From the NCBI GenBank assembly GCA_944381485.1, contig CALWLI010000025.1, positions 1 to 64,000 on the forward strand: a stretch of DNA of 64,000 bases. Direction: 5' to 3'. Every line of letters begins with the position of its first letter. The stretch's first letter is position 1. Below are positions 12,506 through 28,400 of the stretch, one piece after another. This DNA comes from an uncultured Lachnospiraceae bacterium (GTDB lineage: Bacteria; Bacillota; Clostridia; Lachnospirales; Lachnospiraceae). A model generated the notes under the pieces. It did not search any database and was not told the DNA's origin. It saw nothing but the letters and a program-made list of their open reading frames with translations. A program made the translations under genes and the position numbers.

Positions 12506-12519
12506 AAGAAGACGAAAAA

Positions 12520-12539
12520 GGGAGGGCTCCTGCCCTCCC
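12520..12539. terminator. Bidirectional terminator
   Basis: GGGAGGGC (12520-12527) pairs with GCCCTCCC (12532-12539) around a TCCT loop. The T-run TTTTT follows on the minus strand, where it would end the small gene at 12562; on the plus strand the tail GATCTTTTG is weaker. Confidence 0.8.
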
Positions 12540-12561
12540 TGATCTTTTGTCGTAACTCTTT

Positions 12562-12927
12562 TTACTCAGCTTCTTCCTGTGAAGCCTCTTCGCCGCTGTC
12601 CTTAAGCTCTGCGCTCTCATCCTCTGCAGAGCTCTCATCCTCAGCAGAACTCTCACTCTCATCAGAAGCGCTCTCCGTGGTCTCGTCAAGGCTCTCGTCT
12701 CCGACTGCAGCTGTTGCATCTGAAGGTGTGGCCATAAGGTCGGCATACTCATCCATAAGGCTCTCGTAGATATCCGACTCGGATGTGGAGAAATCTGTTG
12801 TTGCCATTATAACTATAGGAGATATAAATATTACAGCCATAACTATTATGGCAGCTATAGTATCTCTCTTATAGGTCTTGTCCTTATTTGCGTCTCTTCC
12901 CTGTCTCTTATTTGAATTGAAGCCCAT
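12562..12927 (-). CDS. Small acidic single-pass membrane protein, unknown function
   Basis: A 121-residue protein I do not recognise. A basic N-terminus of about 23 residues (NKRQGRDANKDKTYKR) precedes one transmembrane helix (TIAAIIVMAVIFISPIVIMA, about 24-43). The rest is an acidic Ser/Glu/Asp-rich tail with the repeated motif SSAEDE. The orientation rule (basic side in) puts the tail outside. GAGAGGAAG lies upstream of the ATG and a terminator lies downstream, so it is probably expressed as its own unit. No enzymatic motif is present. Confidence 0.7.
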   Translation of the reverse strand: MGFNSNKRQGRDANKDKTYKRDTIAAIIVMAVIFISPIVIMATTDFSTSESDIYESLMDEYADLMATPSDATAAVGDESLDETTESASDESESSAEDESSAEDESAELKDSGEEASQEEAE

Positions 12928-13061
12928 AGATCATCTTCCTCTCACAATTTACTTCTTAATCTTAAAAGCTTACTAAGCTCACAGAAGATATTTATAAAAC
13001 GAAATTGTGAACAAATTATGAATTGAGCCCCTTAAGACCGGCAAAAGCGGCAAATATATCA

Positions 13062-13571
13062 TTATTTTATATAGCTCACCTTTGAAGGGTCAAAGAAACC
13101 TCTGGGGGCGGGATCCTCATCAGGAACACCCAGAGCCACAACCGCAAGGGGGACCGACTCCAAGCCAAATGCCTCCTTTATAGCTGTCACCCTCTCCATT
13201 ACGGGATAAAGGCCGCACCAGCAGGTACCGTAGCCCAGCTCAAGAGCCTGCAAAAGCAGATTCTCTATTGCCGCTCCGCAATCCTCAGGCCAGAACTCGG
13301 AGCAATTTCCCTCCTGAGCCTTGGGAAGCCCGCACACGATTATGGCCAGAGAAGCTGTATTAAGCATCTTTGTATAGGGCTGGATATTCATTATCTTCTC
13401 CTTGCCCTCAGCGCTCTCAACCACCACAAACTCCCAGGGCCTTGTGTTCCTTGCGCTGGGAGCCATCATCGCCGCCTCAAGTATGGTCTCGATGTCCTTC
13501 TGAGGTATCTTTACACCCTCCTTGTACTTTCTTATGCTCCTTCTCTTTCTTATAGCTTCGGTAACGTTCAT
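13062..13571 (-). CDS. Nitroreductase-family FMN oxidoreductase
   Basis: A small (169-residue) nitroreductase-fold protein that should bind FMN and reduce nitro or quinone-like substrates with NAD(P)H. The N-terminal FMN contact is RKRRSIRKYKEG. The conserved MMAPSARNTRPWEFVVV lies near residue 35. The dimer segment DCGAAIENLLLQALELGYGTCWCGLYP lies near residue 90-115, and VVALGVPDE near 150. AGGAGAAGGG precedes the ATG. It is probably independent of its neighbours; the substrate is unknown. Confidence 0.92.
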   Translation of the reverse strand: MNVTEAIRKRRSIRKYKEGVKIPQKDIETILEAAMMAPSARNTRPWEFVVVESAEGKEKIMNIQPYTKMLNTASLAIIVCGLPKAQEGNCSEFWPEDCGAAIENLLLQALELGYGTCWCGLYPVMERVTAIKEAFGLESVPLAVVALGVPDEDPAPRGFFDPSKVSYIK

Positions 13572-13617
13572 TTCCCTTCTCCTTTCCCCTCTTTGTTCAT
13601 ATTGTAATTGTTTGCTG

Positions 13618-14817
13618 TTATTTTTCGCAGGCTTTTATGACTCTCTTTGCAAGCCTCTTGAAGGCGGGAAGAGCCCTCTCTATCATGTCATAGGAAACAC
13701 AGTAAGCTATCCTCACATATCCCGAGCAGGCAAAGGAGCTTCCCGGAACCACAAGTATATTCTCCTTTTTGGCCTCCTCCAAAAAGCTCTTCTCGTCTCC
13801 CGAGGGCACCTTCATAAATATATAGAAGGCTCCCTCAGGCTTTACACATTCAAAGCCCAGTTTTGTAAGGCCCTCGTACAGGAGCTTTCTATTCTTATCA
13901 TAGGCTTTCACATCCGTCTTCTCATCCACGCATCGCATTATCACCCTCTGCATAAGTGAGGGTGCATTCACACAGCCCAGAACTCTGTTTGCTATGGTTG
14001 CAGCGGAAAATACCCTGTCCTTCTCGTCCATCTCATCGGGGATCACCAGGTATCCTATACGCTCACCGGGAAGAGACAGAGACTTGCTGTAGGAATAGCA
14101 CACCACAGTATTGTGATAATACTTTGTGACATAGGGGACCTCAGCTCCGTCGTAGGCCAGCTCCCTGTAGGGCTCATCTGAGATAAGCACTATCTGTATC
14201 CCAAGCTCCTTCTCCTTCTTTCTAAGTATATCAGCTATCTTAGTCAAGGTCTCGGAAGAATAAATTACTCCCGTAGGATTATTGGGGGTGTTTATTATTA
14301 CAGCCTTGGTCTTTTCGCTTATCTTTTCCTCAAACTCCGAGAGCTTGGGCTGAAAGCTCTCCCTGTCAGGGGATATCACCACCACTTTCCCGTCATAATT
14401 ATTAATGTAGGCATTGTACTCCAAAAAGTAGGGTGCAAATACTATGACCTCATCCCCCGGGTCAAGGATAGTCTTAAGTATGACATTCATACCGCTTGCA
14501 GCCCCGACAGTCATGAGTATATTGTTCTCATCAAAGGAGGTTTGGAACCTTCTGTTTATGGAGTCCGCCACAGCAGCTCTCACATCCTCATAGCCCGCAT
14601 TACTCATATAGCCATGAAGAAAAACAGGATCTTCTGTCTTTACTATGTCGCATATGGCCTCATTTACAGCATCAGGTGAGGGGACGGAGGGGTTTCCCAG
14701 GCTGAAGTCATATACATTCTCTCTGCCGTACTTTTCGGCAAGTCTTTTTCCCTCCTCAAACATCATCCTTATAGCGGAATTATTGTTTACCAAAGGCATC
14801 ATTTTTTCGGAAATCAT
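13618..14817 (-). CDS. Pyridoxal-phosphate aminotransferase, class I/II
   Basis: A cytoplasmic fold-type I aminotransferase of 399 residues. Visible elements are DFSLGNPSVPSPDAV, GAASGMNVILKTILDPGDEV, NTPNNPTGVIY, LISDEPYRELAY and the PLP-lysine motif SYSKSLSLPGERIGY near residue 240. YVRIAYCVSYDMIERALP near the end carries the substrate-carboxylate arginine. The ATG at 14817 has AGAAGGAG nine bases upstream; a TTG eight codons earlier overlaps hflX and has no better site. It follows hflX by 16 bp. It resembles aspartate or aromatic aminotransferases; the exact substrate cannot be read. Confidence 0.9.
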   Translation of the reverse strand: MISEKMMPLVNNNSAIRMMFEEGKRLAEKYGRENVYDFSLGNPSVPSPDAVNEAICDIVKTEDPVFLHGYMSNAGYEDVRAAVADSINRRFQTSFDENNILMTVGAASGMNVILKTILDPGDEVIVFAPYFLEYNAYINNYDGKVVVISPDRESFQPKLSEFEEKISEKTKAVIINTPNNPTGVIYSSETLTKIADILRKKEKELGIQIVLISDEPYRELAYDGAEVPYVTKYYHNTVVCYSYSKSLSLPGERIGYLVIPDEMDEKDRVFSAATIANRVLGCVNAPSLMQRVIMRCVDEKTDVKAYDKNRKLLYEGLTKLGFECVKPEGAFYIFMKVPSGDEKSFLEEAKKENILVVPGSSFACSGYVRIAYCVSYDMIERALPAFKRLAKRVIKACEK

Positions 14818-14833
14818 ATTTCTGTGCTCCTTC

Positions 14834-16171
14834 TCAATCAATAATATATTCTCTGTATCTTCCCAAAAGTCTTTTTCCGATAGAGCATTTTATGTAAATG
14901 CCCTCCTTCCTGTACTCCACAGAATCCGTGAGAGCCGAATTTCTCAGCTCGTTTTCTATCCTTCCCTCGCTGTAGGGGACCAGAAGCTTAACAGAAAGCC
15001 AGTCCTCAAAGAGCTTCGAATTTATCATGGATATGAGCTCCTCGATGCCCTCCCCTGACTTTGCAGACATATATATACTGTTTCCTCTTATAAAAGGAAG
15101 CCCTCCCTCTCTTTTTTCAGTCCTATTCTCGTAGGCAGATGCATCCTTCAAAAACTCATCCGAAGTAAGCACCCTGTCGGCCTTGTTCATCACATAGATA
15201 ACAGGTATGTCGGAGGCCCCCAGTTCCTTTAGGGTATCCTCCGTCACTTTTATCTGCCTCTCCCTGCTGTCGTCGGAATAGTCCACAACATGGAGAAGAA
15301 GATCAGCTGTCTTTGCCTCCTCCAAAGTGGAGCGGAAGGCCTTGACCAGGTCGTGGGGAAGATCATGTATAAAGCCGACCGTGTCGGACAGCAGAAATCC
15401 CCTGCCCTTCCCTGTCTGCACCCGCCTCACAGTAGTGTCCAGAGTTGCAAAGAGCATGTCTTTTGCAAGTACAGCCTTCTCCTCAGATGAATCGCAGTAC
15501 TCAAGTATCTTGTTCATGAGAGTTGATTTTCCGGCATTCGTGTATCCCACAAGGGCCACCAGGGGCATGCCTTCCCGCTGTCTCCTGCGCCTTTGAGTCT
15601 CTCTCTCCCTCTCCACAGACTCAAGGCCCCGCCTTAGGTCCGCAAGGCGTCTCTCTATATGTCTTCTGTCAAGCTCAGTCTGCTTCTCTCCTGAACCCTT
15701 GTTGGACATGGAGCCTCCCGTGCCTCCCTGCCTTGACAGATTTTTCCTTAAACCGGAGAGCCTGGGAAGCATGTATTTGAGTCTTGCGGACTCAACCTGC
15801 ATCTTCGCCTCAACTGTCCTCGCCCTCTCGCTGAAGATATTTAAGATAAGCCCCGTCTTATCAAGCACCTCGCTGTCAAGTTCTGTACAAAGATTTGAGA
15901 GCTGAGAGGGGGTAAGGGTATTCAGAAATATGGCGGTTCCCGCATCTGTCGCCTCCATAAAGGTCTTAAGCTCCTGAAGCTTCCCCTTGCCTATGTAGGT
16001 GGAAATTTCCACCCTTGTAAGATTTTGGCAGCTTGTGCCTGCCACCTCATATCCGCAGGCTTCCGCCAGCCCCGAAAGCTCCTTCATGGATATCTCAAAG
16101 TCCGGATCTCTCCCTGTGTTCACGCCCACAAGTACAGCTCTTTTTACAATACTCTCGGTATTATCTGTCAT
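14834..16171 (-). CDS. hflX: Ribosome-splitting GTPase HflX
   Basis: HflX is a 50S-binding GTPase that rescues or splits stalled ribosomes. The protein has 445 residues from the chosen start. The N-terminal HflX domain (about 1-185) includes GKGKLQELKTFM and SARLKYMLPRLSGL. The Gly-rich linker RQGGTGGSMSNKGSGE and a coiled-coil of Arg/Glu follow. The GTPase domain has G1 GYTNAGKST near residue 210, G3 DTVGFIHDLP and G4 NKAD. The ATG at 16171 is preceded by AAAGGAAG; a longer frame upstream lacks a ribosome site. Confidence 0.96.
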   Translation of the reverse strand: MTDNTESIVKRAVLVGVNTGRDPDFEISMKELSGLAEACGYEVAGTSCQNLTRVEISTYIGKGKLQELKTFMEATDAGTAIFLNTLTPSQLSNLCTELDSEVLDKTGLILNIFSERARTVEAKMQVESARLKYMLPRLSGLRKNLSRQGGTGGSMSNKGSGEKQTELDRRHIERRLADLRRGLESVERERETQRRRRQREGMPLVALVGYTNAGKSTLMNKILEYCDSSEEKAVLAKDMLFATLDTTVRRVQTGKGRGFLLSDTVGFIHDLPHDLVKAFRSTLEEAKTADLLLHVVDYSDDSRERQIKVTEDTLKELGASDIPVIYVMNKADRVLTSDEFLKDASAYENRTEKREGGLPFIRGNSIYMSAKSGEGIEELISMINSKLFEDWLSVKLLVPYSEGRIENELRNSALTDSVEYRKEGIYIKCSIGKRLLGRYREYIID

Positions 16172-16332
16172 CTTTCTTCCTTTCACGTCACAATTCTGAC
16201 TATATAATAATATCACAAGTTCGTTTTTTTAAGCTATATTTCCGTGGAGAAAAACTGCTTATAATGCTACAATATAAACTGTATATATAGTAACAACAGA
16301 TATATGGAATTATTGACGGAAGGGAGGATTAT

Positions 16333-16806
16333 ATGAATTATATAGATCTCACCATAAAAGAACAGAAAAATATCGCCCTCATAGCTCACGATGCGAAAAA
16401 GCAGGATCTCATAGAATGGTGTCTCAAAAATAAGGACATACTCTCAAAGCACAATCTCTTCGGCACAGGCACCACCTCAAGGATGATAGCTGACGCCACA
16501 GGCCTCAGGATAAAAGGATACAATTCAGGCCCTCTGGGGGGAGATCTTCAGATAGGAGCAAAGATAGTTGACGGGGTCATCAACATGATGATCTTTTTGA
16601 GCGATCCCCTCACTGCTGCTCCCCACGATCCGGATGTAAAGGCTCTTACAAGGATAGCTCAGGTTTATGACATACCCATGGCAAACAATCTCGCCACAGC
16701 GGATTTTCTCATAAACTCCACTCTCATGACAAAGCCCTATACTCACAAGATAGAGGACTTCAACCTCAATGTAAGAGAGCGAGCCGAGAAGCTGAAGGCT
16801 CAATAA
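16333..16806 (+). CDS. mgsA: Methylglyoxal synthase
   Basis: Converts dihydroxyacetone phosphate to methylglyoxal and phosphate, a glycolytic overflow bypass. The 157-residue product has IALIAHDAKKQDLIEW, the phosphate-binding TGTTSRMI, NSGPLGGDLQIGAKI with the catalytic aspartate, and LSDPLTAAPHDPDVKAL. These are the characteristic MgsA blocks. GGGAGG lies just before the ATG. It is a monocistronic plus-strand gene with a terminator 54 bp downstream. Confidence 0.97.
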   Translation: MNYIDLTIKEQKNIALIAHDAKKQDLIEWCLKNKDILSKHNLFGTGTTSRMIADATGLRIKGYNSGPLGGDLQIGAKIVDGVINMMIFLSDPLTAAPHDPDVKALTRIAQVYDIPMANNLATADFLINSTLMTKPYTHKIEDFNLNVRERAEKLKAQ

Positions 16807-16860
16807 AGATGAGCAGCTTATAATCACGATACTTTTTTTACAATAGTTTTTTTACACAAC

Positions 16861-16894
16861 AAAACATCCCGCAGCGGTCTTTGCGGGATGTTTT
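16861..16894. terminator. Terminator between mgsA and the YkvI-like gene
   Basis: AAAACATCCCGC (16861-16872) pairs perfectly with GCGGGATGTTTT (16883-16894). GTTTTTG follows on the plus strand. The long A/T-flanked stem could serve both convergent genes. Confidence 0.9.
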
Positions 16895-16927
16895 GTTTTT
16901 GCATTTTTATTTATAGGGGAATCAGCT

Positions 16928-18076
16928 TTAAGCTTCTTTCTTCTTTCCTTTTCCTGTAAGGTCCTTGATATTCTTCCAAAGCATGAAGAGTATAAGTACA
17001 GCTCCTACGTATCCGTTGAGCACGTAGATGATGTTTACAAGAACTCTGAAGGGGAGGAAGAGACCTACAAAGAGTCCTACAAGTCCGAGTACAACTGTCA
17101 GGATCTTGAACTGCTTTGTGCCCTCTTTCGCAAACCTTGCCGCAGGGTTGTAGAGAAGGGGAACCGCTGTAGTATAGATTCCGCCGAATACAACTATAGC
17201 AAAGAATGCTGAGAAGGGCTTCCATATCTTCTCCGCAAGGATCAGGTTGGGAATGTCAGCGCTCCACACATAGTTTCCGTGAGCATCAGCTGTGTTGATA
17301 TTTGCTATCTGAGCGAAGGATATAAGAACTATAGCCACGCATACAGCCACAGCTCCCCAAACTATACCGTGATAGAGATCCTTCTTGCTGTTCTGAGCTC
17401 CGAGAGCCGCTGTAAAGCTTGCAAACCACAGGAGAACGAATCCTGCATAGCTTATACCTGACATGAGCCAGTTAGCTCCGGCGTTCTTTATGGTGTTGTC
17501 TGCAGTAGCTCCGGTAAATGCTCCCTGCTCTATTATCTGAAGGCCTTCACCTATATGTGAGCCGTCCCTTACGAGGGTGGCTATACCTATGAAGATACAG
17601 AGGGCAACTATGGCAGGTCCCACAGCTCCTATGGCGTCAACCAGTGAGTTGAGTCCGCCCACAACTGTTATCATAGCTGCAACCGCAAGTATTGTTCCTC
17701 CTACCCAAAGGGGAAGGCCGTACTGCTGATTGAGGGTCGATGCGGATCCGCCTACCATTACGAAGAATGACATGTAGCAGAAAAGTGTTGAGTAGTAGTC
17801 GCAGAAGGTTCCAACATACTTTCCGCAGAAATACTTGTATACGTCGTTACCTCTCTCAAAACGTTCCTCGGAACCCGCTTTTGCGAAGTTGAAGTTGTAG
17901 TAGAGGAAGGTAACCAGAAATACAAGAACAGCGCCTATTCCGCCGACGCCGTAGGCAGTAAAGTACTGGATGATCTCCTGTCCTGTGGCAAAGCCTGAAC
18001 CTATGGTGAAAGCTATGACAGCTCCCGCAAGTATGATAACTCGCTTGGGGTTCAGTTTAGTATTGTCAATACCCAT
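16928..18076 (-). CDS. YkvI-like membrane protein, candidate amino-acid permease
   Basis: A polytopic membrane protein of 382 residues with about ten to eleven hydrophobic helices. It begins with IILAGAVIAFTIGSGFATGQEIIQYF, a Gly-rich unwound-helix motif like that of LeuT/APC-fold transporters. The overall pattern matches the poorly characterised YkvI family. It lies 122 bp after grdB on the same strand but beyond a strong terminator, and has its own AGGAGG. Its position suggests uptake of the amino acid consumed by the reductase (glycine, or possibly sarcosine), but nothing in the sequence fixes the substrate. The C-terminus is basic (KKKEA). Confidence 0.8.
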   Translation of the reverse strand: MGIDNTKLNPKRVIILAGAVIAFTIGSGFATGQEIIQYFTAYGVGGIGAVLVFLVTFLYYNFNFAKAGSEERFERGNDVYKYFCGKYVGTFCDYYSTLFCYMSFFVMVGGSASTLNQQYGLPLWVGGTILAVAAMITVVGGLNSLVDAIGAVGPAIVALCIFIGIATLVRDGSHIGEGLQIIEQGAFTGATADNTIKNAGANWLMSGISYAGFVLLWFASFTAALGAQNSKKDLYHGIVWGAVAVCVAIVLISFAQIANINTADAHGNYVWSADIPNLILAEKIWKPFSAFFAIVVFGGIYTTAVPLLYNPAARFAKEGTKQFKILTVVLGLVGLFVGLFLPFRVLVNIIYVLNGYVGAVLILFMLWKNIKDLTGKGKKKEA

Positions 18077-18140
18077 ATTTTTTCCTCCTGTGTCAGGATC
18101 ATGTTATTGTGAAAAAATCTACAATATTATTTACAAAAAA

Positions 18141-18171
18141 GGTGCGGCACACGGCACATGTGTACCGCACC
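18141..18171 (-). terminator. Terminator after grdB
   Basis: GGTGCGG (18141-18147) pairs with CCGCACC (18165-18171), with a secondary ACACATGTG palindrome in the loop. TTTTTT follows on the minus strand. It would end or attenuate the grdE-grdB message before the YkvI-like gene. Confidence 0.85.
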
Positions 18172-18198
18172 TCGGGAAATATCCGGTCTGCTTGAAGA

Positions 18199-19518
18199 TT
18201 AGAAGTCATCCTTCTCAAAAACAGTCTGACCGTCTACAGGTGTCTGCAGAGCCTTGAGTGCTCTCCTAACCATTCTCTTTCTGATCTTCTTGGAGTCAAC
18301 CTCACCCTGTGTAGGATCTCCGAGGGGATAAGGAATACCTACGCCGGGGATTATACGGTTAGCACCTATAGTAAGTGAAATAGGAACTACAGTAGCCATA
18401 TGAACTACAGGAATACCATACTTCTCGATACCCTTAACCATCGTTGCACCGCAACGAGTACAGGTTCCTCAGGTAGAGACGAGAATTACGCCGTCAACGT
18501 GATCCTCTACTAACTTCTTTCCTATAGCATCTCCGAACTTGGCAGCAGATCCTGTAGCAGTACCTGTTCCTGTGGTAGCAAAGAATGAATCATAGAGCTT
18601 TCCGAATTCTCCATCCTTCTCCATCTCTCTCAAAACATCAAGAGGTACTACGAGGTTGGGGTTCGCAAGAACGAACTGTCTGTCATATCCGCCGTGTACA
18701 GTCATGAAATCATCGGGTGACATTGTGTCCATACCCTTTATTGAGTACTCACCGAACTTTGTAGCGTTGGATGACTCAATATGGTCAGGGTTACCCTGAG
18801 GAACAACTCCTCCTGAGGTAACAACTGCGATGGTTGCATGCTTCATATCCTTTATAGGAGCGGCAGGCTCAACTCTGTCAAACTTAGGCATGGGAAGATC
18901 GGTCTCAAAGGGCTCACCCTTCATCTTCTTGATGAGCATCTCAAGTCCACGCTCTGATCCTCTCTTCTCTGCAAAGTAGTTTACACGGATTCCTCTCTCA
19001 TGGTAGCCCTCTATAGCGGGTCCCAGGATCTCCTCTCCTGTAGCCATCTTCTTAACGAGATTAGCCATTACAGGGATTACGTTCTTCATATCTGCTGAAG
19101 AGTTTCCGGCCTTGACGATTATAACGTCCTTCTTGAACATATCTGTTCCGGGGTTCTCCTGGTAAGCAGCTGTGAGAACGGGGATTCCCAGTCTCTCCTC
19201 AACAGCCTTACAGATAGTTCCGCAGGCAACTCCGTAACGTCCTGCGTTGAAGGCAGGTCCTGCTACGAATACATCGGGCTCATACTTCTTAACCATCTCG
19301 ATGATGGTGTCTGTAGCCTTGTCAAGGTTCTCTCCGAAGTAGTTGTCACCGCAGATAACTGTGGCAACTATCTCATAGTCGGCTCCCAGTGCAGCTGCAA
19401 GAGCTCCGCCGGGTCCTACAACACCCTCTCTTACCTCGGGCTCGTAATCAGCCTTCTCCTCGCCGCCGATTCCTGCGAAGAACTGATTTAAATAATGAAC
19501 AATTTTATATTTAGCCAT
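18199..19518 (-). CDS. grdB: Glycine reductase selenoprotein B subunit GrdB (Sec at in-frame TGA)
   Basis: Component of protein B of glycine reductase; its selenocysteine attacks the Schiff-base-bound substrate to give carboxymethyl-Sec on protein A. The frame runs 349 codons from ATG 19518, meets TGA at 18469-18471 and continues in phase for 89 codons to 18199, giving 439 residues, the normal GrdB size. The residues around it read LVSTUGTCTRCG, the GrdB U-x-x-C-x-x-C redox motif with Sec at 350. A 7-bp SECIS-like hairpin starts 12 bases later. GGGAG precedes the ATG. It follows grdE by 23 bp. Stopping at the TGA would give a false truncation and a false 80-residue downstream gene. Sarcosine-type (GrdF) or betaine-type (GrdH) paralogues are alternatives. 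Confidence 0.95.
18441..18471 (-). promoter_or_regulatory. Selenocysteine codon and bacterial SECIS element of grdB
   Basis: On the minus strand the TGA (18469-18471) is followed after 11 bases by TCGTTGC (18451-18457), a GGT loop (18448-18450) and GCAACGA (18441-18447), a perfect 7-bp stem. Position and small G-rich loop fit a SelB-binding bacterial SECIS. The hairpin lies inside coding sequence. Confidence 0.88.
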
Positions 19519-19541
19519 AGTCTTATCTCCCTTTCCGAAAA

Positions 19542-20828
19542 TTAATAGCCTCTTGCAGCCAGCTTGTTGAAGCCGTTAGCAATAGTTGAAGCTATGATTA
19601 TCTGGATCTCAGCCTCGAATGAGCCGTCAGGATTTACGCAGCCTGCCCATCCGCCGAGCTGGGACTCAATGTAATCCTGAGTTCCGATCACCTTATCCAT
19701 AGCAGGGAACTGAAGGGTCATATTACCCTGTCCGCAGGATGCAAGAGCTGTAGCCTCCTCGCAGGTATCAGCAAGTGACTGTGACTTTCCGTCCTTTCCG
19801 GGGAACTCGTCGGTGATAAGAACCACCTTGATTCCCTTCTGCTCAACCTTCTTACAGTTCATCATAAGGTCAGTATCGGGATTTCCGTATCCCTCCTCTG
19901 TGATGAGCACTCCGTCAAGTCCCATGTACTCGGCAAGCTTTGCAACCATGTCTGAATGTCTCTCCTTGTCGGCAAGGAAAACGTTCTCATTTGTAAGGAT
20001 AACTCCCATGAAGTTGATATCCTTTCCATGGTGCTTGTAGCAATCCTCGATTACAGGGTTGTGGAAATGGTGATATGTTGTAACCTTGTCACAAGGAGCA
20101 ACGCAGTTTCCTGAAACGATAGCTCCGTCCATGATCTCTGTGGGATACATGAATGTGGGAACAAAGTTCTTTGCGTCTACACCGTAATAATATGTGTCGT
20201 GAAGAAGTCCCTGAGACTGAAGCATGTGGATGTATCCTACCTTAGGAAGATCGGGATACTCTGCAGCCTGCTCGAAAATGGGCTTTGTCTCAAAGGTCTC
20301 GATAGAATCAGGCTCAACATTTCTTCCTGCCTCTCCGAGATATGCGGCAACCTTAAGTCCTGCCATACGTCCTGCCTTCTCGTATACGTGAGTCTCAAGT
20401 CCCTCAGCGGGCTCGATAACTACGCAAAGGTTCACGGTCTTTGAGAACGGGCAGTAGTCGGCAGCAACTCCTGACATGTCGATAACACCCTCCTGGAAGC
20501 CTACGATACGTCCTACGGTCACAACTGTCATTCCGTCAAGAGCGTGAGTGCGGCCTGTTCCTACGGGCGGTGTTACCTTTCCGATAACTCCGGGGAAGAT
20601 CTCTCCTCCTGAGACCTTTACTCTGGGCTCTATTACATCCTTTACGGGAGTAATACGAGTAGCCTCTCCGGGTCTCGCAATGTCAAGCTTGCAGCCAATG
20701 AGCTTGTCATCCTCGAGCACAAGCTTCTCGACCTCTTCTTTATTTACATAAAGAACGTGGTCCTTGACTTCAGTTTTGTCGGCAAACTTGATGTCATTGA
20801 TTTTGATTTTTCCTAACTCAAGTTTCAT
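19542..20828 (-). CDS. grdE: Glycine reductase protein B proprotein GrdE
   Basis: GrdE is cleaved to give the 47- and 25-kDa-type subunits of protein B, exposing a carbonyl (pyruvoyl-like) group that binds the substrate amino group. The 428-residue protein carries SGNCVAPCDKVTT with the cleavage cysteine at residue 242, the position I recall for Clostridium sticklandii GrdE. HMLQSQGLLHDTYYYGVDAK, LITEEGYGNPDTDLMMNCKK and ASCGQGN are also typical. The similarity looks closer to glycine-type GrdE than to GrdI; the sarcosine type GrdG cannot be excluded. AGGAGGGG precedes the ATG. It is first in grdE-grdB. grdA, grdC, grdD, trxA and trxB are not in the window. Confidence 0.94.
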   Translation of the reverse strand: MKLELGKIKINDIKFADKTEVKDHVLYVNKEEVEKLVLEDDKLIGCKLDIARPGEATRITPVKDVIEPRVKVSGGEIFPGVIGKVTPPVGTGRTHALDGMTVVTVGRIVGFQEGVIDMSGVAADYCPFSKTVNLCVVIEPAEGLETHVYEKAGRMAGLKVAAYLGEAGRNVEPDSIETFETKPIFEQAAEYPDLPKVGYIHMLQSQGLLHDTYYYGVDAKNFVPTFMYPTEIMDGAIVSGNCVAPCDKVTTYHHFHNPVIEDCYKHHGKDINFMGVILTNENVFLADKERHSDMVAKLAEYMGLDGVLITEEGYGNPDTDLMMNCKKVEQKGIKVVLITDEFPGKDGKSQSLADTCEEATALASCGQGNMTLQFPAMDKVIGTQDYIESQLGGWAGCVNPDGSFEAEIQIIIASTIANGFNKLAARGY

Positions 20829-20911
20829 TTTATCCCCTCCTTACTTGAATTTATACAAAGTCTTGTAAAACAGTTGTAAACTTGCTTTCAAGACCGGCAT
20901 TCAATTCATCT

Positions 20912-20925
20912 TTGATATAAGTCAA
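20912..20925. promoter_or_regulatory. CRP/FNR-type palindrome upstream of grdE
   Basis: TTGATATAAGTCAA fits TTGAT-N4-ATCAA with one mismatch. It lies 84 bp before the grdE start and 35 bp from the nearest of the three operator palindromes. An anaerobiosis or CRP-like regulator is possible. This is a short motif and could be chance. Confidence 0.35.
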
Positions 20926-20956
20926 ATTTTATTGTGAATTTTGCAAAAAATTCCGC

Positions 20957-21040
20957 AAAATAATCTTGATTACTTTATGTATCAGACATAAGTAATCGCG
21001 ATAACTTCTAAATAAATAATAAAATAATCGCGATTATTTT
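20957..21040. promoter_or_regulatory. Three phased palindromic operators between tetR and grdE
   Basis: Cores are TAATCTTGATTA (20961-20972), TAATCGCGATAA (20993-21004) and TAATCGCGATTA (21025-21036). The last sits in a perfect 20-bp palindrome, AAAATAATCG plus its mirror (21021-21040). Centres are 20966.5, 20998.5 and 21030.5, so the spacing is exactly 32 bp twice, about three helical turns. They lie in the 480-bp region between the TetR stop and grdE and are the best candidate binding sites for that TetR protein. The rest of this region is AT-rich, with one terminator and no further gene seen. Confidence 0.75.
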
Positions 21041-21212
21041 GCAACAAAAAATTATGGTATTTTTGTAGTTTTCTGTAACTTTTATTCTTTTTGTGAAAAA
21101 TATACCAATTCGTTTGATTTAAAAGCTCTGAGAAGAAGAATTTTTGTGTAATTTGCTCACAGGTATTGCATTGATATGAATTATTTTTCATCGTTTCACA
21201 CTTAAAATAAAA

Positions 21213-21254
21213 GCCCTGAAGTTACAAATCAAATGTTTTTGTAAACTTCAGGGC
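21213..21254. terminator. Bidirectional terminator after the TetR gene
   Basis: GCCCTGAAGTT (21213-21223) pairs with AACTTCAGGGC (21244-21254). CTTTTTAT follows on the plus strand and TTTTATTTT on the minus strand. It lies 55 bp beyond the tetR stop, so grdE needs its own promoter. Confidence 0.88.
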
Positions 21255-21308
21255 CTTTTTATTGATTTAAAACTTTAAAATACAAATATAAAATTAAGGG
21301 GAAAGGCA

Positions 21309-21992
21309 TCACATCAATTCCTTGTGTCCGAGAGTATCCTTTGCAAGATTTTTTATGACAGTGTGGGTATCTCTCATAAACATAGCCAGAGTATCCTCTA
21401 TCTCGTATTCCTCTATCCCGTTATCCAGTATGCCTTTAAGGTATCCCTTATAGAGCATGCATACCATGCGGTTCATGACTATGGCATTGTAAGGGTCTAT
21501 GACCCCGGCCTCAGCGCACTTTCTGCACATCTGATAGTCTCTCTCAAAAAAGTCGGAGGTCCTCAGCATGTCCGTAAGATATCTTGCCACCAGATCTATA
21601 TGCTCAGGGAAAATAGAATAGTACTCATTCAGAGCTCCCACCAGCTCCTTGCTCATATCAGAGAAGAATATGGTGTTGAAGGCATGGGGATAGGTGAAGG
21701 CTGTCCTGGCATAGCACTCCCATATGCCTATGTGCATGTCCCACACGTCCTTCCAGTTTTTCTCCGCCTTTGCAAGAGCGTCTATATAATGGTCCAGATA
21801 CTGTATCTGGCTGTAAAAAAACAGTTCCTCTATATTTACGAAGTAACGATAAAGACAGGCGCTCGTGCAGTTGAGCTCCTTAGCTATCCTGCGGATGGTG
21901 AGCGCCTTCTCTCCTTCATTTTTTACTATTTCCGAAGCCTTTATAATATAATCTCTTCTGGAAAGCTCCTTAAAAAACTTATCCTTGTTCAT
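21309..21992 (-). CDS. TetR-family regulator of the glycine reductase module
   Basis: A 227-residue TetR-type regulator. The N-terminal HTH includes RRDYIIKASEIVKNEGEKALTIRRIAKELNCTSACLYRYF, with LYRYF closing the recognition helix near residue 50. The remainder is helical and fits a ligand-binding dimer domain. It has several Cys and His residues, but no clear metal motif. The ATG at 21992 lies 3 bp after the grdX stop and a TTG directly precedes it; there is no strong ribosome site, so translation is probably coupled to grdX. It is followed by a terminator and three phased palindromes before grdE. A role in sensing glycine or a related amine is inferred from position only. Confidence 0.85.
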   Translation of the reverse strand: MNKDKFFKELSRRDYIIKASEIVKNEGEKALTIRRIAKELNCTSACLYRYFVNIEELFFYSQIQYLDHYIDALAKAEKNWKDVWDMHIGIWECYARTAFTYPHAFNTIFFSDMSKELVGALNEYYSIFPEHIDLVARYLTDMLRTSDFFERDYQMCRKCAEAGVIDPYNAIVMNRMVCMLYKGYLKGILDNGIEEYEIEDTLAMFMRDTHTVIKNLAKDTLGHKELM

Positions 21993-21995
21993 CAA

Positions 21996-22391
21996 TCAAT
22001 TAAGACGAGGAATAATATTATCGATAACCGATAAATCTATTGTCCTGAAATCCTTGTCCACTCCTTCTGCATAGCCTGCAGGCGAGGGTGCTATATCCTG
22101 CCACTGCCTGTAGACTTCAATGCACTTTTCTATCAGCAAAATGTCCTTGGTATTGTCCTTGGTCTTCTCATCCTTGGGATATACCATGACCGAACGGTAA
22201 GGGGTCTGGTTGGGCTTAAGGCTTGAGGCCTGAGGATGCGTGAGAAGTATGTACTTGTCATAAACCAGGTCTCTGACCTTTATGAGGACATTCTCATAGC
22301 CCTCAACAAAAATTACAGTCATCTTATCCGCATACTTGTCCCTGACATCAGGATTGTTGGTGACAAGCACAGTCTTATCCATATCCCACAT
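21996..22391 (-). CDS. grdX: GrdX family protein
   Basis: GrdX is a small protein of unknown function encoded at the head of glycine reductase operons. The 131-residue product begins MWDMDKTVLVTNNPDVRDKY and has FVEGYENVLIKVRDLVYDKYILLTHPQASSLKPNQTPYRSVMV. The TNNP, VRDL and LTHP-x-x-x-S-x-KPN-x-TPY blocks are those I recall for GrdX. The ATG at 22391 has GGAAGG seven bases upstream; a longer frame to 22472 lacks a ribosome site. It directly precedes the TetR gene. Its presence supports a glycine reductase identity for the downstream grdE-grdB pair. Confidence 0.87.
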   Translation of the reverse strand: MWDMDKTVLVTNNPDVRDKYADKMTVIFVEGYENVLIKVRDLVYDKYILLTHPQASSLKPNQTPYRSVMVYPKDEKTKDNTKDILLIEKCIEVYRQWQDIAPSPAGYAEGVDKDFRTIDLSVIDNIIPRLN

Positions 22392-22460
22392 AAAAACACC
22401 TTCCTTCCCTATCGTCCAAATCATTGTAGCATCACAGCTGATCTTTTTCAACCTTAAAAA

Positions 22461-22497
22461 GGAGAGTGCCACCCCAGGTTAGGGCTGACACTCTTCC
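22461..22497 (-). terminator. Terminator after the zinc-finger gene
   Basis: GGAGAGTG (22461-22468) pairs with CACTCTTCC (22489-22497) with one bulge, and CCC/GGG pairing continues inside. TTTTT follows on the minus strand. It separates the surface-protein unit from grdX. Confidence 0.75.
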
Positions 22498-22526
22498 TTT
22501 ACTCAAGAATTTATCATCATTTGCTT

Positions 22527-22766
22527 TTACCCTGTTGTCAGGCTGTCAGCAGTCTCTGTCACAGCCCTCTCAACAGCCTTCTCCAGTTCTCCGTATATCG
22601 CCTCCGCTCTCTCTCGCCTTCTCCGCCTCGTTCCGGCCCCTCGCTTCCAGTAGGTCTTCTCGCATTCCTTTGAGCAGAATACGCTCCTCTTGTCCTTGAG
22701 GTCTGTTACGAGTACAGGCTTTCCGCAGTATCGGCATACAAAGAATCTTGCTCCTAATTCCTCCAT
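22527..22766 (-). CDS. Small zinc-finger protein, unknown function
   Basis: A 79-residue basic protein I do not recognise. Four cysteines form C-x2-C (FVCRYCGKPV, residues 10-13) and C-x3-C (VFCSKECEKTYW, about 31-35), spaced like a treble-clef or zinc-ribbon finger. An Arg-rich stretch (RRRRRERAEAI) and a helical tail follow. The ATG overlaps the last 13 bases of the surface-protein gene, so translation is probably coupled; GGAG lies almost directly before the start. A terminator follows. It could bind nucleic acid, but no catalytic motif is visible. Confidence 0.65.
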   Translation of the reverse strand: MEELGARFFVCRYCGKPVLVTDLKDKRSVFCSKECEKTYWKRGAGTRRRRRERAEAIYGELEKAVERAVTETADSLTTG

Positions 22767-25321
22767 GCTCCGTTTTCATCAACGAAATAACCGTCGGGGG
22801 TCATCTCGTTCCTGTACATAGAGCCGTAAGGCCTTGAAGCGCTTCCGTTCCAAGTCCATCCTCCTGTGGCCTCATCATAATGCCAGGTGATCTCGGGCGC
22901 ATAGGGATTGAAGTAATACCATGCGCTTCCTATCTGCTGCCAGCCGAGGAGCATCTCTCCTCCATCAGGATTCAGATAGTACCACTTTCCATCCTGGTCA
23001 TCATAGTGCCAGCCGGTCTCCATGGTTCCAAGCATTCCGTCGGAATCCCTGTGCATCCAGTACCACTTTCCTGTGTTCTCATCAAGGTACCAACCGTACT
23101 CCATGATACCGTCATTGTCGAAGCTGAACCAGCCTTCCTTGGGCTGTCCGTCAACAGCGTAGGGGTTCTTTACATATGCCCACTGATCATAGAGCATAGC
23201 GCCGTTGTTGAGTATGAACTTCCACTGATGCCACTCAGGAGCAGTCACAGGTGTTGCGCCTTCGGGAACAGGGCTTGTGATGGGTGCAAATATATTTGCA
23301 GGATCAACATGTACCCAGTTTCCGTGTACACCTGCGGTGTAGGTGGAGCCGCTTGCTCCGGGTCCCGCTCCGGGTGTGTTGGAGTCTGTATTTCCATTGC
23401 CGTGATCGTCGTCATCCTTGTTGTCGTCTGAGCTTGCGTCCTCAGTCTTCCACATCAGCATGAAGGGGCTGAAGGCATGCTCGCCTGTAGTATAGAAACG
23501 GATTCCATAAGGCGTATTCTCAAGTTGAAGTTCAACTTCGTCTTCCAATGGTGCGTCTTCTATTGCTTCTCTTACAGCATCATCTCCATCATATTGTTTA
23601 TCTCTGTCAAGTCCCACAAAGTATCTGATTGTAAACTCAGTGTTTTCATCCGTTCCATTCGGGTAAGGCATATATACATCGGTTCCTTTTGTGCTCTGAA
23701 CCCATGCATTTCCGTTTCCACTGTCCACAAGGTCGAAATACTTAAGTACAGAAGAATATCCTTCAGCCTCAGCCTTATCTGTATCTATTCCGTAAGCATC
23801 ATTGTATGCCTTATCTTTGAGGATATCTATCCTTCCATTATCGGTTTTGACATCATCCACGAGAAGCATGATATCGTCTACGCTGTCTTCATCTATTACA
23901 CGATCGGGATCTCCATTTGTAAGGAATGTGGTTGTGTCAGATACAACAGCTCCTGCAAGCTTTGATTCATTTGTGTCCACATCAGCCTCATCATTAACTA
24001 TCTCTCTGTAAACAGATTCATTGTTGACCTGACGTACATAGAGGGAGCCATTATTTATATTAACATAATAGTTAAAAGCTCTTCCGTCCTCATATGTAGC
24101 ACCAACTCCTATAGATGAGAGTTCTCCTCCTGTTCCTATAGTTACTATCCTGTTTTGATTGTCAGAGTTTCTGATAAGTCCGTTATCTATATAATAGTTT
24201 TCATGTCCTTCAAAGGCATCAATTGCATCTGATCTTACAGCGATTACTGTAAGATAGTTTCCATAATCATCATCATTGTCAGATACAGACTGCTGATAGT
24301 TACCGTTTTCATCGATATAAACATACATAGCTTTGAGGAAGGTATTAAGGTCTATATCATTATCTGTTGTATCCTTAAAAGTATACCCATTAATTGTAAC
24401 AGAGTTTACAGCACTATTATCCACCTGTCTGCCTTCATCCGTAAGTTCAAGTTCAAGATCAGGGAATCCTGATTCATCGTCACTGTTTGCTCCTCCGGAG
24501 TATACTGTCGTATCATAAGGCTGAAGTAGTACATGAGGCTGATCTGCATCCGGAATGTCATCATTATTCTTGTCCTCATCATATTCTGCCTTGAATGTCT
24601 GTGATTTTCCTGCAAAGAAATCATCCAGAACAGTGTTTTCAAATGCTGTGTAGTCTATTCCTCCGGATTTCCAATTGTTAACCAACACATTTTTAATGAC
24701 ATCGTTAGAAGGTGCAGGTCCTACAGCGTCTCCAACATTATACCAATATGTAGCAACAGTTTTGTCTTCTGAGACAGTTACCTTTGTACTGTTTTCAAGC
24801 TCAAATACTCCTCCACTATCCTGGCCCAGGTCAAAAACTACTCTAAACTGCTCACTGTCATCTATTCCATCGCCATTTTCATCATTTATCTTTTCCCATC
24901 CGGCAGTGTATACAGTATTGGCATCAGGAACTATTCCTGTATAGGAATTGCCGTTTTCATCTTGCCACCCTGTAAACTTCCATCCGGTATTTGCCTTAGG
25001 TTCAGGTGCTGTAAAAGATGTACCCGGCTCCAACTCAGTGATCATTGTCTCATAGCTGCCACCGGCAAAAGCTCCCTTTTCATGGTCTGATTCGCTGATA
25101 CTGAAAGTAAGATTTACTGTAGCAGCTTCTCCATATACTGCATTAAACATCTGGGAGCCAACCAATCCCTCGTCAACAGTCACACCCTTAACAGTATTAT
25201 AGTTTATTCCTCCTGATAACCATGCAGTTACTTCCTTTTTATTGCCCGCAGCCTTTAAAATAGCATCATCAGCAGGTGCCTCACCTATAGTATCGCCAAT
25301 GCTATACCAATATGTCGCCAT
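22754..25321 (-). CDS. C-terminal part of a split surface protein, with choline-binding-like repeats
   Basis: This is the downstream part (855 residues from the first ATG) of one frame interrupted by TAG at 25481-25483. The frame is open from 25480, and the 53 codons before ATG 25321 read SDATYTAKWAKDSNNDG onward, directly continuing the upstream domain pattern. No ribosome site or signal peptide precedes 25321, so separate expression is doubtful. It contains two or three InlB B-type/flagellar-like repeat modules (ATYWYSIGD, VATYWYNVGD, each followed by a DxNxDGxxD calcium-like loop), a middle region of unknown fold, a Gly/Asn/Asp linker and about six Trp/Tyr-rich wall-binding repeats (GWYLDENTGKWYWMH, GWHYDDQDGKWYYLN). 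The middle is AT-rich relative to both ends. Confidence 0.75.
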   Translation of the reverse strand: MATYWYSIGDTIGEAPADDAILKAAGNKKEVTAWLSGGINYNTVKGVTVDEGLVGSQMFNAVYGEAATVNLTFSISESDHEKGAFAGGSYETMITELEPGTSFTAPEPKANTGWKFTGWQDENGNSYTGIVPDANTVYTAGWEKINDENGDGIDDSEQFRVVFDLGQDSGGVFELENSTKVTVSEDKTVATYWYNVGDAVGPAPSNDVIKNVLVNNWKSGGIDYTAFENTVLDDFFAGKSQTFKAEYDEDKNNDDIPDADQPHVLLQPYDTTVYSGGANSDDESGFPDLELELTDEGRQVDNSAVNSVTINGYTFKDTTDNDIDLNTFLKAMYVYIDENGNYQQSVSDNDDDYGNYLTVIAVRSDAIDAFEGHENYYIDNGLIRNSDNQNRIVTIGTGGELSSIGVGATYEDGRAFNYYVNINNGSLYVRQVNNESVYREIVNDEADVDTNESKLAGAVVSDTTTFLTNGDPDRVIDEDSVDDIMLLVDDVKTDNGRIDILKDKAYNDAYGIDTDKAEAEGYSSVLKYFDLVDSGNGNAWVQSTKGTDVYMPYPNGTDENTEFTIRYFVGLDRDKQYDGDDAVREAIEDAPLEDEVELQLENTPYGIRFYTTGEHAFSPFMLMWKTEDASSDDNKDDDDHGNGNTDSNTPGAGPGASGSTYTAGVHGNWVHVDPANIFAPITSPVPEGATPVTAPEWHQWKFILNNGAMLYDQWAYVKNPYAVDGQPKEGWFSFDNDGIMEYGWYLDENTGKWYWMHRDSDGMLGTMETGWHYDDQDGKWYYLNPDGGEMLLGWQQIGSAWYYFNPYAPEITWHYDEATGGWTWNGSASRPYGSMYRNEMTPDGYFVDENGAWRN

Positions 25322-25480
25322 AGCGAAATCATCAGATAACGTTATTCTTTCGCTCTCCTGAAGATTAAAAACAAATCCATTTTCAGTTCCCAGATTGAAA
25401 ATTATTTGTAACTGTTCTTCGTCTTTATCTCCGTCGTTATTGCTGTCTTTCGCCCATTTGGCTGTGTATGTGGCGTCGCT

Positions 25481-25483
25481 CTA
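25481..25483 (-). other. In-frame amber codon splitting the surface protein gene
   Basis: On the minus strand the frame reads DTVP-TAG-SDATYTAKW. Both sides are in the same phase and belong to the same repeated module (GW-x-P-x-LPDTVP-x-SDATYTA-x-W), in which Glu (GAG) is a natural residue at this place. A single G-to-T change would make TAG. hrcA and the LeuD-type gene end in TAG, so it is a normal stop here. Confidence 0.85.
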
Positions 25484-28400
25484 GGGTACCGTGTCGGGCA
25501 GTACGGGGTTCCATCCGTCAAATACCCAGCCGTCATTCTCCGTGTCGGTGACCGGAACGTTCGGCATCTTAGAGCCCTTCTTCAGGCTCAGCTCCACCTT
25601 CGCGGGATCGGCACTTGCGAAGCTTCCCTTGCTCTTGTCGCCCTCCGCTATCTCGAAGGTGATTTTCACATACTGCTTGTAATCGGGGATTCCGTCTCCG
25701 TCCGAGTCCGCCGCCCAAACAGCATATATTTCTTTGTCGGAGTCCATAAGGATCTCTTCTATAAAGGTTATCTCTTTATCATCTTCTTTGTTTTTAATAA
25801 CGTCAGCCGGTTCAGTGCTCCATCCTACAAAAACATTAGTTCCATACTTCAGGCTACTTATGTCAACTTTTGACAGATCTGCAGTCGTATTCTTAATGTA
25901 TTCCGCTGAAGGCACTTGTCCTGTTGCGCCATTGGAATTGAATGTCAAAGTAACTGTGTTGTCATTAAACTTTGGTGTAAAAACGACTCTGTTGATTCCG
26001 GAATTGATCAAATCTGTAATACTGTTTGTCAATACATAGTTTTCATAAGTCGTTCCCGAGTTCTCCCAGCCTCCAAATACTTTATCAGCCTGTATTCCGG
26101 ATATGTTGGAAGCTGATGGAGGATCAATATAACTGTCGTTCAAATTATACCAGTATGTAACAGTTGTTTCGGTGACTTTAACTTCATCAGATTCTGTTAT
26201 ACCTGTAAAGCTTGTGCCGGTATCTTGAAGGTCAAACACCACTTGAAGTTGTTCTTTGTCCGTCTTGTCATCATTGTTCTTATCTAAGTCAAAATAAATA
26301 TTTATTATGTTTATGTCAGAATTATCAGTCAGTTCAAATACTATATCACTGTCTTCATTAAGAACGTACCCACTTATTTCTTTATTAAGAATATCATAGC
26401 TGAATACTTCGCTGCCTTTAATTCCTGCTCTATTCTCATCAGGGTATTCATCAAGCTTTTGTATATATCCTGAATAGTCATCATTCTGGAACCAATACTT
26501 TACGGTGTAGCTAACATATTCGCTGCCTGCTATAGGAGTAAGCTTGGCTTTAAACTTAATTACACCGTTTTCTGCAGCCACTACAGTGTTTGAGTCAAAT
26601 ATAAAGACTTCATTAGCATCATATAGTTTCCCATTGTATTCCCAGCCTTCAAAGACATACTGTTTAGCATTATATTCCGGTACAGAAGATGTTATAACTG
26701 TCTGATTATTTCTCTCAGGCAAAATTGTGTATGGACCGTTTGTATCGGTAATCGTAGATGAAACTTCACCATCAACTATGTATTCCACATGATACTCTTC
26801 AATTTCTGAAGTTATGTAAACTTCGACATTGTCCGAAAGGTTATTAGGAACATTAAATTGATAGGAATAATCGCCCTCAATTGTATATTCGTCTTTCGAC
26901 ATTTCACTTGTATCGCGAACGCTGATGCCTGTCTCTTCTCCATTTGCAAGAACAGTAACCTTCGGTTCAGTATATCCCGGTGTTAAGTTAAAATAAAACT
27001 CATTACCTGTTCTTTTTGTTTGGAGATATACAGAATTCAGGCTGCCTTTGACATATCCGCCACGACCGTCATTTTGAGCACAATCCCAACCCTGAATTTC
27101 ACTTACGCCATCAAGGGTTTTAAGAATTATCTCGTCCCTCTCATCGTCTTTGAAGTTTCCATCTGTAACATCAATGTTGTGATATATATTTGAGACTGTT
27201 ACTGTATACTCGTGATATTTGTTATACCATAACCTGCCGCCTTCTCCAGTCAACTGTATTTTTACAGTCTCTCCTGTAGATAATATGGTTTCTGCACTGT
27301 CTCCAACATTAAATGTAGTCGGAACATTTACATACTCATTATTGATTGCCAGCAAATTTAAGTGCCACTTATGTCCGTCTATATCAGTCAAACCTGTCCA
27401 ATTATCACTTTTTAATTTAAAACTTATTGAGCCTCCTGTCTTTACTGAAGTACCGCTCTCAGGCTCTGTAATATTTCCTTGTCTGATATTTTCATTATTA
27501 TATGTAAACACATAACTTGAAACATCAGTTTCTTTAATTACAATGTTCTGATCTTCGAATACGTTACTGATAGTAAAGCTCATCCTTCCACTTGTGCTGT
27601 CAATTATTACTCCACTATCGGTAACATCATTATCATTTATAAGAACAACAATATTTTTGGCCAAGCCTGAAGGTTCCACAGTAAATGTATAGCTGCTCCC
27701 TGCCTCTACTGTCTCAGGGCCTTCCCATACTACCCCGGCTTGTACATCATAGTTTATGGCATAGTCTTCTTTATAAGTCTCATAGTTCAAAACTATTTTT
27801 TCGCCGGACTTAAGCAGCATTGCAGTGTTTCCACTGTCCTCTGTTGTATAGTATATATAGTCATTCCAGCTTCCGACCATCAAGACGGAATCATTTTTAT
27901 CGTCTATTGTCGCCTTTATGAATTCATAGCCTTCTATCTCAGGAATATTCCCGGCAACTTCTCCGATTTTGATTTCGGTAGGTTCGTCCTTAAGCTCTCC
28001 ATCTAAGGCAATATAAACTGTTACCGTCTCATCCGCATATAAATCCACAAGCAGATCCGCATTAATCTCATCAGCCGCACCTGTAACAACAAACATGGCA
28101 ATTTCTGCATTTTCTGCCAACTTCATGCTGGAATCTGCAGTCTTAATAACCTTTTTATCCAGTGCCTTATTGTTTCCGACTATTTTAGCATCACTTCCTG
28201 TAAATAATCTTGGCATACTGATGTCAGATCTTTTCTCAACCTTATATACCTCTGTAGGAAGAGGATTAGGTTCTCCAATATCAAAAAGATCACTATTTTC
28301 AGAAAGCTCGCTTATACCTGTTACAGATACTGTGACTTTATTCTTTATATCTTTATCAGACAACAGCTTATCATCAGTATCTTTCAGAGTAAATCTGTAT

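Follow-up and report, generated by a model that had tools for sequence, protein, structure and literature searches.

The stretch analysed here, referred to as the window, comprises 64,000 nucleotides (positions 1 to 64,000) of contig CALWLI010000025.1 in assembly GCA_944381485.1 of an uncultured Lachnospiraceae bacterium. On its minus strand it carries grdX, a TetR-family regulator gene (tetR), the genes of a two-subunit reductase component B, and a gene for a membrane protein that we take to be YkvI-like. An initial annotation had described this array as a stand-alone glycine reductase module, grdX-tetR-grdE-grdB-permease. All five genes are indeed found on the minus strand where it placed them; the two large genes, as set out below, are grdG and grdF and not grdE and grdB.

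Named genomes were scanned with GrdG, which yielded 247 relatives; the best 80 of these were used for locus counts. One of the loci, L056, belongs to a cultured relative, Faecalimonas umbilicata DSM 103426. Flanks are often cut, with 47 of the 80 loci having about 8 kb on both sides. GrdF adjoins GrdG in 79 of the 80 loci. GrdX was found nearby in 67 and TetR in 32; of the transporters, a YkvI-like permease is near in 36 loci and one of NSS type in 18. Among the 47 loci with long flanks TetR is present in 22 and YkvI in 24. The array is beyond chance, since grdX, tetR, grdG, grdF and the permease gene co-occur in 15 of the 80 loci. Nine loci contain grdA (in L065 as a partial opposite-strand match) and five contain grdCD.

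Substrate class of the reductase pair

The pair was compared with curated NCBIfam models. GrdG passed the sarcosine model NF040793 (868 bits, cut-off 780) and GrdF passed the sarcosine model NF040794 (830.9 bits, cut-off 800). The glycine model TIGR01917 was not reached by GrdF (594.4 vs 602.2 bits), and the betaine model NF040795 was not reached by the window protein (567 vs 775 bits).

A tree was built from 94 of 103 GrdG-type proteins, each joined to its GrdF-type partner; the row for contig C10 of this genome contains the GrdE half only. Nine proteins were omitted, four because their loci were in the set already as same-genus records and five because a full adjoining partner was missing. 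This is a quick tree without a mixture model, the program warned of long branches among other rows, and sarcosine labels were set by identity above 68% to the window. The 77 sarcosine rows form one group (support 100 in the quick tree). The window pair lies within this clade, apart from the glycine pairs of the genus and from the betaine clade. Judged by the curated models and the tree, the reductase pair is the sarcosine paralogues GrdG/GrdF and not the glycine reductase GrdE/GrdB. The same evidence overturns the glycine identity first proposed and rules out a betaine assignment, which the initial annotation had considered. A mere copy of the glycine operon, with identical subunits elsewhere, had also been envisaged; it is ruled out, since window GrdG is only 57–58% identical to the genus's own GrdE and the pair is therefore no copy. 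A second glycine reductase component B, i.e. a paralogue used on glycine under other conditions, might be suspected from the nearness of the GrdF score to the glycine cut-off and from the close relationship of the families. However, that cut-off is missed while both sarcosine models are passed, and the low GrdG–GrdE identity and the clade separate from the genus's glycine pairs make such a paralogue highly improbable.

In the list of open reading frames (ORFs) grdF appeared in two pieces because of an in-frame TGA, here read as selenocysteine in the residue context STUGTCTRCGATMVKG. The RNA that follows this codon folds somewhat better than shuffled sequences (z -2.11; 4 of 200 shuffles as good), and selA, selB and tRNA-Sec are present in the genome.

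Coordinates of all features are collected in Table 1. For GrdX, a 104-aa part (22391 to 22080) passed model NF038093 (103.9 bits, cut-off 40), and a Pfam scan gave no match. Promoter sites resembling TTGCAA-17-TATTAT were observed 12 times against 9.4 expected from shuffles. The absence of grdA, grdC, grdD and thioredoxin genes from the window, claimed initially, holds for the part whose ORFs were listed: none was seen by eye among the ORFs of 12000-28000. Two large minus-strand ORFs (855 and 1183 aa; window 22754-29032) adjoin grdX, the first with choline-binding cell-wall repeats.

Table 1. Features of the sarcosine reductase locus in the window
Feature	Position	Strand	Remarks
grdX, 131 aa	22391-21996	minus	ATG at 22391; GTG at 22472 also open as start
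tetR, TetR-family regulator, 228 aa	21995-21309	minus	Pfam TetR_N, 28.6 vs 24 bits
Terminator-like hairpin 3' of tetR	21210..21257	minus	-23.3 kcal/mol, then T-rich tail
Promoter-like hexamers TTGCAA-17-TATTAT ahead of grdG	21016..21044	minus	weak taken alone
Operator-like palindrome 1, AAAATAATCGCGATTATTTT	21021..21040		flanked by both promoter-like hexamers
Operator-like palindrome 2, GTAATCGCGATAAC	20992..21005		
Operator-like palindrome 3, minus-strand form GTAATCAAGATTAT	20960..20973		weaker
grdG, sarcosine reductase component B subunit alpha, 428 aa	20828-19542	minus	NF040793
grdF, sarcosine reductase component B subunit beta, selenoprotein, 439 aa	19518-18199	minus	NF040794
In-frame TGA, codon 350 of grdF	18471-18469	minus	read as selenocysteine
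Hairpin with T tail, grdF-permease gap	18139..18173	minus	terminator or attenuator
YkvI-like membrane protein, 382 aa, candidate sarcosine permease	18076-16928	minus	
Terminator-like hairpin 3' of permease gene	16858..16897	not assigned	

The TetR regulator and operator-like sites

Orthologues of the regulator stand beside both sarcosine and betaine modules (27-member alignment), and the window protein is 49.6% identical over 222 aa to the regulator on contig C7 of this genome (locus L010). Its search against PDB sequences returned 109 matches; the 60 of them that were listed cover mainly the N-terminal part. A model of this TetR was run against 246 genomes of the order, this one included. At E <= 1e-25 its matches are limited to two regulators of this genome, on C25 and C7, and a weaker one in genome G069; GrdG was above its cut-off in two of the 246, this genome and G069.

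The first palindrome was picked out in the window before the named relatives were examined. The three operator-like sites of the window follow each other at 32-bp steps, site 1 between the promoter-like hexamers and sites 2 and 3 after them. The 14-mer used for counting, GTTATCGCGATAAC, had been refined on the very loci in which it was then counted. A total of 31 intervals from tetR (or an intervening grdX) to grdG were used: the window, four same-genus records and 26 others. At two mismatches or fewer, the 14-mer occurs in 29 of these 31 intervals and in none of 40 shuffled sets. In the 500 bp upstream of grdG in other loci it occurs in 2 of 50 (L064 and L065), in both of which tetR lies downstream of the transporter. 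One of the two misses among the 31 is L050, where a pair of related sites 33 bp apart is present; the other is L109, in which tetR precedes grdX and the site is found 452 bp upstream, in the tetR–grdX gap. The unrefined core ATCGCGAT was detected in 21 of 28 TetR loci of other genera vs 1 of 48 others (L083, itself a member of the TetR subclade described below), and 19 times in the remaining locus sequence, which amounts to 1.15 Mb.

The strict pattern GTWATCRCGATWAC occurs at two places in the window genome (C25 and C35) and, of 41 genomes, also in G032; it misses the four same-genus genomes with the module, whose sites are weaker forms. The exact site on C35 (L132:1189-1202) precedes a pair of small ORFs and a permease whose nearest model is that of ethanolamine permease, at a score below the cut-off. 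Similar sites are found at 2–4 mismatches upstream of betaine grdI genes with a TetR of the same family; in the betaine module on C7 they are present only at 3–4 mismatches.

In the tree, all 32 TetR-bearing rows fall within one subclade of 41 (support 97 in the quick tree). The association of TetR with the sites thus does not come from independent cases, and the palindromes might be sites of another regulator, or promoter elements tracking this clade, and not TetR operators. The further exact site on C35, ahead of an unrelated permease operon, is also consistent with such an explanation. It is nevertheless unlikely: the two site-bearing loci among the 50 others have tetR downstream, close relatives without tetR also lack the site at up to three mismatches, in L109, with tetR ahead of grdX, the site is in the gap between these two, and betaine genes with a regulator of the same family are preceded by similar sites. 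We favour the reading of the palindromes as TetR operators. Of the nine rows of the subclade without tetR, L061 and L067 start at a contig end directly before grdG, and in L058 the sequence upstream of grdX is truncated. A single early gain of TetR followed by some losses is the simplest reading of this distribution, though not a proven one.

In 12 of the 80 loci a sigma-54-type gene of the family of the L108 regulator, also seen in L124, stands upstream of grdG at a distance of no more than 2.5 kb; none of the loci has both this gene and TetR. No sigma-54 regulator was seen by eye among window ORFs of 12000-28000, or in seven scanned neighbours. TetR seems to occupy the place taken by the sigma-54 regulator in other modules.

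Control of this genome's own glycine operon by the same TetR was considered and rejected, as zero sites at two mismatches or fewer were present in the fetched sequence (C10, C18, C7 and C25:64001-80000). In two of the named loci a second operator-like site lies in the trxB–trxA gap, with grdA and grdCD following (about +7007 from grdG in L078 and +5908 in L082). In these species TetR may also control the shared components.

Control of grdGF by a TetR with a candidate operator was not found described in the open-licence literature searched.

The candidate permease and components A and C

The last gene of the array encodes a protein with 8–10 hydrophobic stretches. It had no Pfam or NCBIfam match at E<=0.001 and no PDB-sequence match. 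Among 41 genomes searched, relatives with at least 81% identity are present in exactly the five same-genus genomes that have the module; in the other 14 genomes with any match the identity does not exceed 37%. In Peptoclostridium (Eubacterium) acidaminophilum a YkvI-like gene directly follows grdF. Association with the reductase genes makes the YkvI-like protein a candidate sarcosine permease, a role for which no description was found in the open-licence literature searched. The hairpin between grdF and the permease gene of the window is a strong one. A hairpin with a T tail of -8 kcal/mol or lower was detected in 18 of 42 loci with a downstream YkvI or NSS gene.

Some loci showed other neighbours. 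A 17-kb stretch of L062 (Leptotrichiaceae) contains glycine-, sarcosine- and betaine-type pairs with AGCS, YkvI and BCCT transporters among them. An isochorismatase-domain protein lies near grdGF in L099, L122 and L123; N-carbamoylsarcosine amidase is a member of this fold group, and no model match here identifies the three proteins as such. The nearest model for another neighbour cluster (two loci) is Xaa-Pro dipeptidase. These two were the clusters checked; most neighbour clusters had no label.

The genome contains four component-B pairs: those of the window, C10, C7 and C18. The C10 pair adjoins a sodium:alanine symporter gene and is an orthologue of a pair in the same-genus genome G005; the GrdB of that G005 pair exceeds the glycine cut-off (667.4 vs 602.2 bits). 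The C10 operon leaves its contig after about 27 residues of GrdB. Contig C31 starts at residue 385 of a fused GrdCD that is 97% identical to that of G005, and the genes that follow are, compared by eye, of the same kind as in G005. By coordinates, the matching stretch of G005 is about 4.6 kb long and contains, besides trxB, trxA and grdA, the remainder of grdB and the initial part of grdCD. A genome-wide search, suggested initially, thus yielded the second part of GrdCD on C31 and an operon split between C10 and C31. It did not find grdA in this assembly; the same search finds grdA in 6 of 41 related genomes. The gene is probably located in the C10–C31 gap. Since contig ends interrupt the glycine operon on both sides, the missing grdA was not taken as a true biological loss.

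Each of four same-genus genomes with the module has a single grdA, alongside three GrdB-type matches in G005, G006 and G015 and two in G019. Given one grdA for several GrdB-type genes, it is very probable that component-B modules share component A. The initial annotation's view of remote, shared A and C proteins is thereby supported, with the glycine operon elsewhere in the genome and single grdA genes in four relatives. The module and the glycine pair are about 18–25 kb apart on one contig in G006, G015 and G019 and lie on different contigs in G005.

Component C is a single protein of 849 aa that matches both the beta model and the alpha model (L034:5983-8532; C31:1-1398). A GrdCD fusion of this kind has been published for Clostridium sp. 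FS41 (PMC4417704; here and below, the published papers are cited from excerpts). Equal-scoring tRNA-Sec genes are present at the end of C31 (9749-9841) and the start of C27 (7-99), and these contigs therefore probably overlap. If they do, the glycine operon would be followed downstream by selA and selB.

In the C7 pair (L010), GrdH is nearest the betaine model and just short of its cut-off (763.7 vs 775 bits); the module includes a BCCT transporter and a TetR-DUF3841 fusion (L010:7555-8829). The fusion is also present in same-genus L042, whereas L047 has TetR alone. The C18 pair (L009:10031-14449) is below the sarcosine, glycine and betaine cut-offs and has GrdX and a DctM-like permease upstream. 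A divergent selenoprotein-B/GrdE-type pair in reversed order, with a permease-like ORF alongside, was found on contig C32 of G018 (L043:8125-12181); only the general selenoprotein B model was passed.

Proposed function and comparison with known systems

Taken together, the gene content points to a plug-in module for sarcosine fermentation, repressed by TetR, equipped with its own permease and using components A and C of the glycine operon. We consider this explanation probable. The initial idea that this component B is detached and substrate-specific, and comes with a regulator and a candidate permease of its own, was borne out. The scheme follows the reaction of the known sarcosine reductase. 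The permease would import sarcosine, and GrdG and GrdF would split its C-N bond. The carboxymethyl group would pass to selenoprotein A, encoded in the distant glycine operon; component C, from the same operon, would free acetyl phosphate, the yield being methylamine and ATP. TetR, encoded with GrdX in a separate upstream unit, would repress grdGF through the palindromes at the grdG promoter and be released by sarcosine or a related methylated glycine. The permease gene would be transcribed by read-through of the grdF–permease hairpin, and the permease is probably made in smaller amount because transcription must pass this hairpin.

Several observations weigh against this explanation. The window GrdF departs by one residue (V for I before HGGYDR) from the strict GrdF motif published in PMC9751293. 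The motif relaxed to I or V does match it, and 62 (strict) or 77 (relaxed) of 98 GrdF/B/H-type proteins are recognized. A published strict GrdB motif, as rendered here, was given no weight, since it recognizes 2 of the 98 proteins and none of the genus's glycine-type GrdB. The operator 14-mer was refined on the loci in which it was counted, the same-genus genomes have site forms with 1–3 mismatches only, nine rows of the TetR subclade have no tetR, and the single weak TetR match of G069 is far from its grdG. None of the transporter types searched for was present in 27 of the 80 loci, for some because contigs end. To these are added the failure to find grdA in this assembly, and G018 (86% completeness), in which two GrdB-type genes are present and grdA was not found.

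The substrate is assigned by protein family alone, and the wider family acts on other compounds, e.g. fluoroacetate (FarE model); a riboflavin-induced finHI has been reported (PMC12934955). A GrdG/GrdF-type module might then serve another N-methylated or substituted glycine, such as dimethylglycine, with TetR sensing that compound. Such a substrate appears quite unlikely, given that both curated sarcosine cut-offs were passed and that the layout of grdX, grdG, grdF and permease gene is that of P. acidaminophilum, which grows on sarcosine (PMC4056300).

The sarcosine module leads to a wider proposition, which could equally well turn out right or wrong. One TetR family would be a dedicated switch for component-B modules, for sarcosine and, in this genus, also for betaine, there partly fused to DUF3841. 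It would have replaced two-component/sigma-54 control in one sarcosine clade and in some species would reach trxA-grdA-grdCD, and the YkvI-like protein would be a sarcosine permease. The comparison suggests that component-B modules swap regulator and transporter and retain the enzyme pair. Two proteins, a TetR and a YkvI-like permease, are thus given testable roles. In Tissierella creatinophila, creatinine and creatine are broken down by way of sarcosine (PMC5364220), and a sarcosine module with a readable operator would aid in predicting which anaerobes respond to creatine, creatinine or sarcosine.

The detached layout itself is not new, because comparable arrangements are in print for Clostridium sp. 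FS41 (PMC4417704), Clostridioides difficile (PMC7438776) and E. acidaminophilum, with two sarcosine clusters (PMC4056300). What was not found in the open-licence literature searched is TetR control with a candidate operator, and the permease assignment. In strain FS41, sarcosine-specific component B and a hypothetical protein are encoded in one cluster, and A and the fused C in another; neither a regulator nor a permease is mentioned in the excerpts (PMC4417704). The C. difficile operon CD1740-CD1741 is likewise a two-gene sarcosine component B with its own regulators, remote from the glycine operon; it differs in having a sigma-54 (-24/-12) promoter and a two-component system, SarRS (PMC7438776). 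Set beside it, L124 has a sigma-54 response-regulator gene upstream. Five transporter queries gave no match within 3.5 kb in L124 and L127, the latter with 4.4 kb downstream.

Within the genome studied here, the C7 betaine module resembles the window module in having a TetR of the same family, a component-B pair and its own transporter (BCCT). It differs in the betaine type of the pair, in the fusion of TetR to DUF3841 and in its more divergent sites.

The same gene order as in the window, grdX, grdG, grdF and YkvI-like gene, is found on the megaplasmid of P. acidaminophilum DSM 3953 (EAL2_RS13390 to RS13360). The YkvI-like protein encoded there, annotated 'hypothetical protein', is 45.4% identical to the window permease, and neither grdA nor component C is present in the 17-kb stretch around that module. 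A second copy in P. acidaminophilum differs in having BCCT, M24 metallopeptidase and grdA genes downstream. In place of TetR, the megaplasmid module has genes for a substrate-binding-domain protein and then a sigma-54 regulator upstream of grdX.

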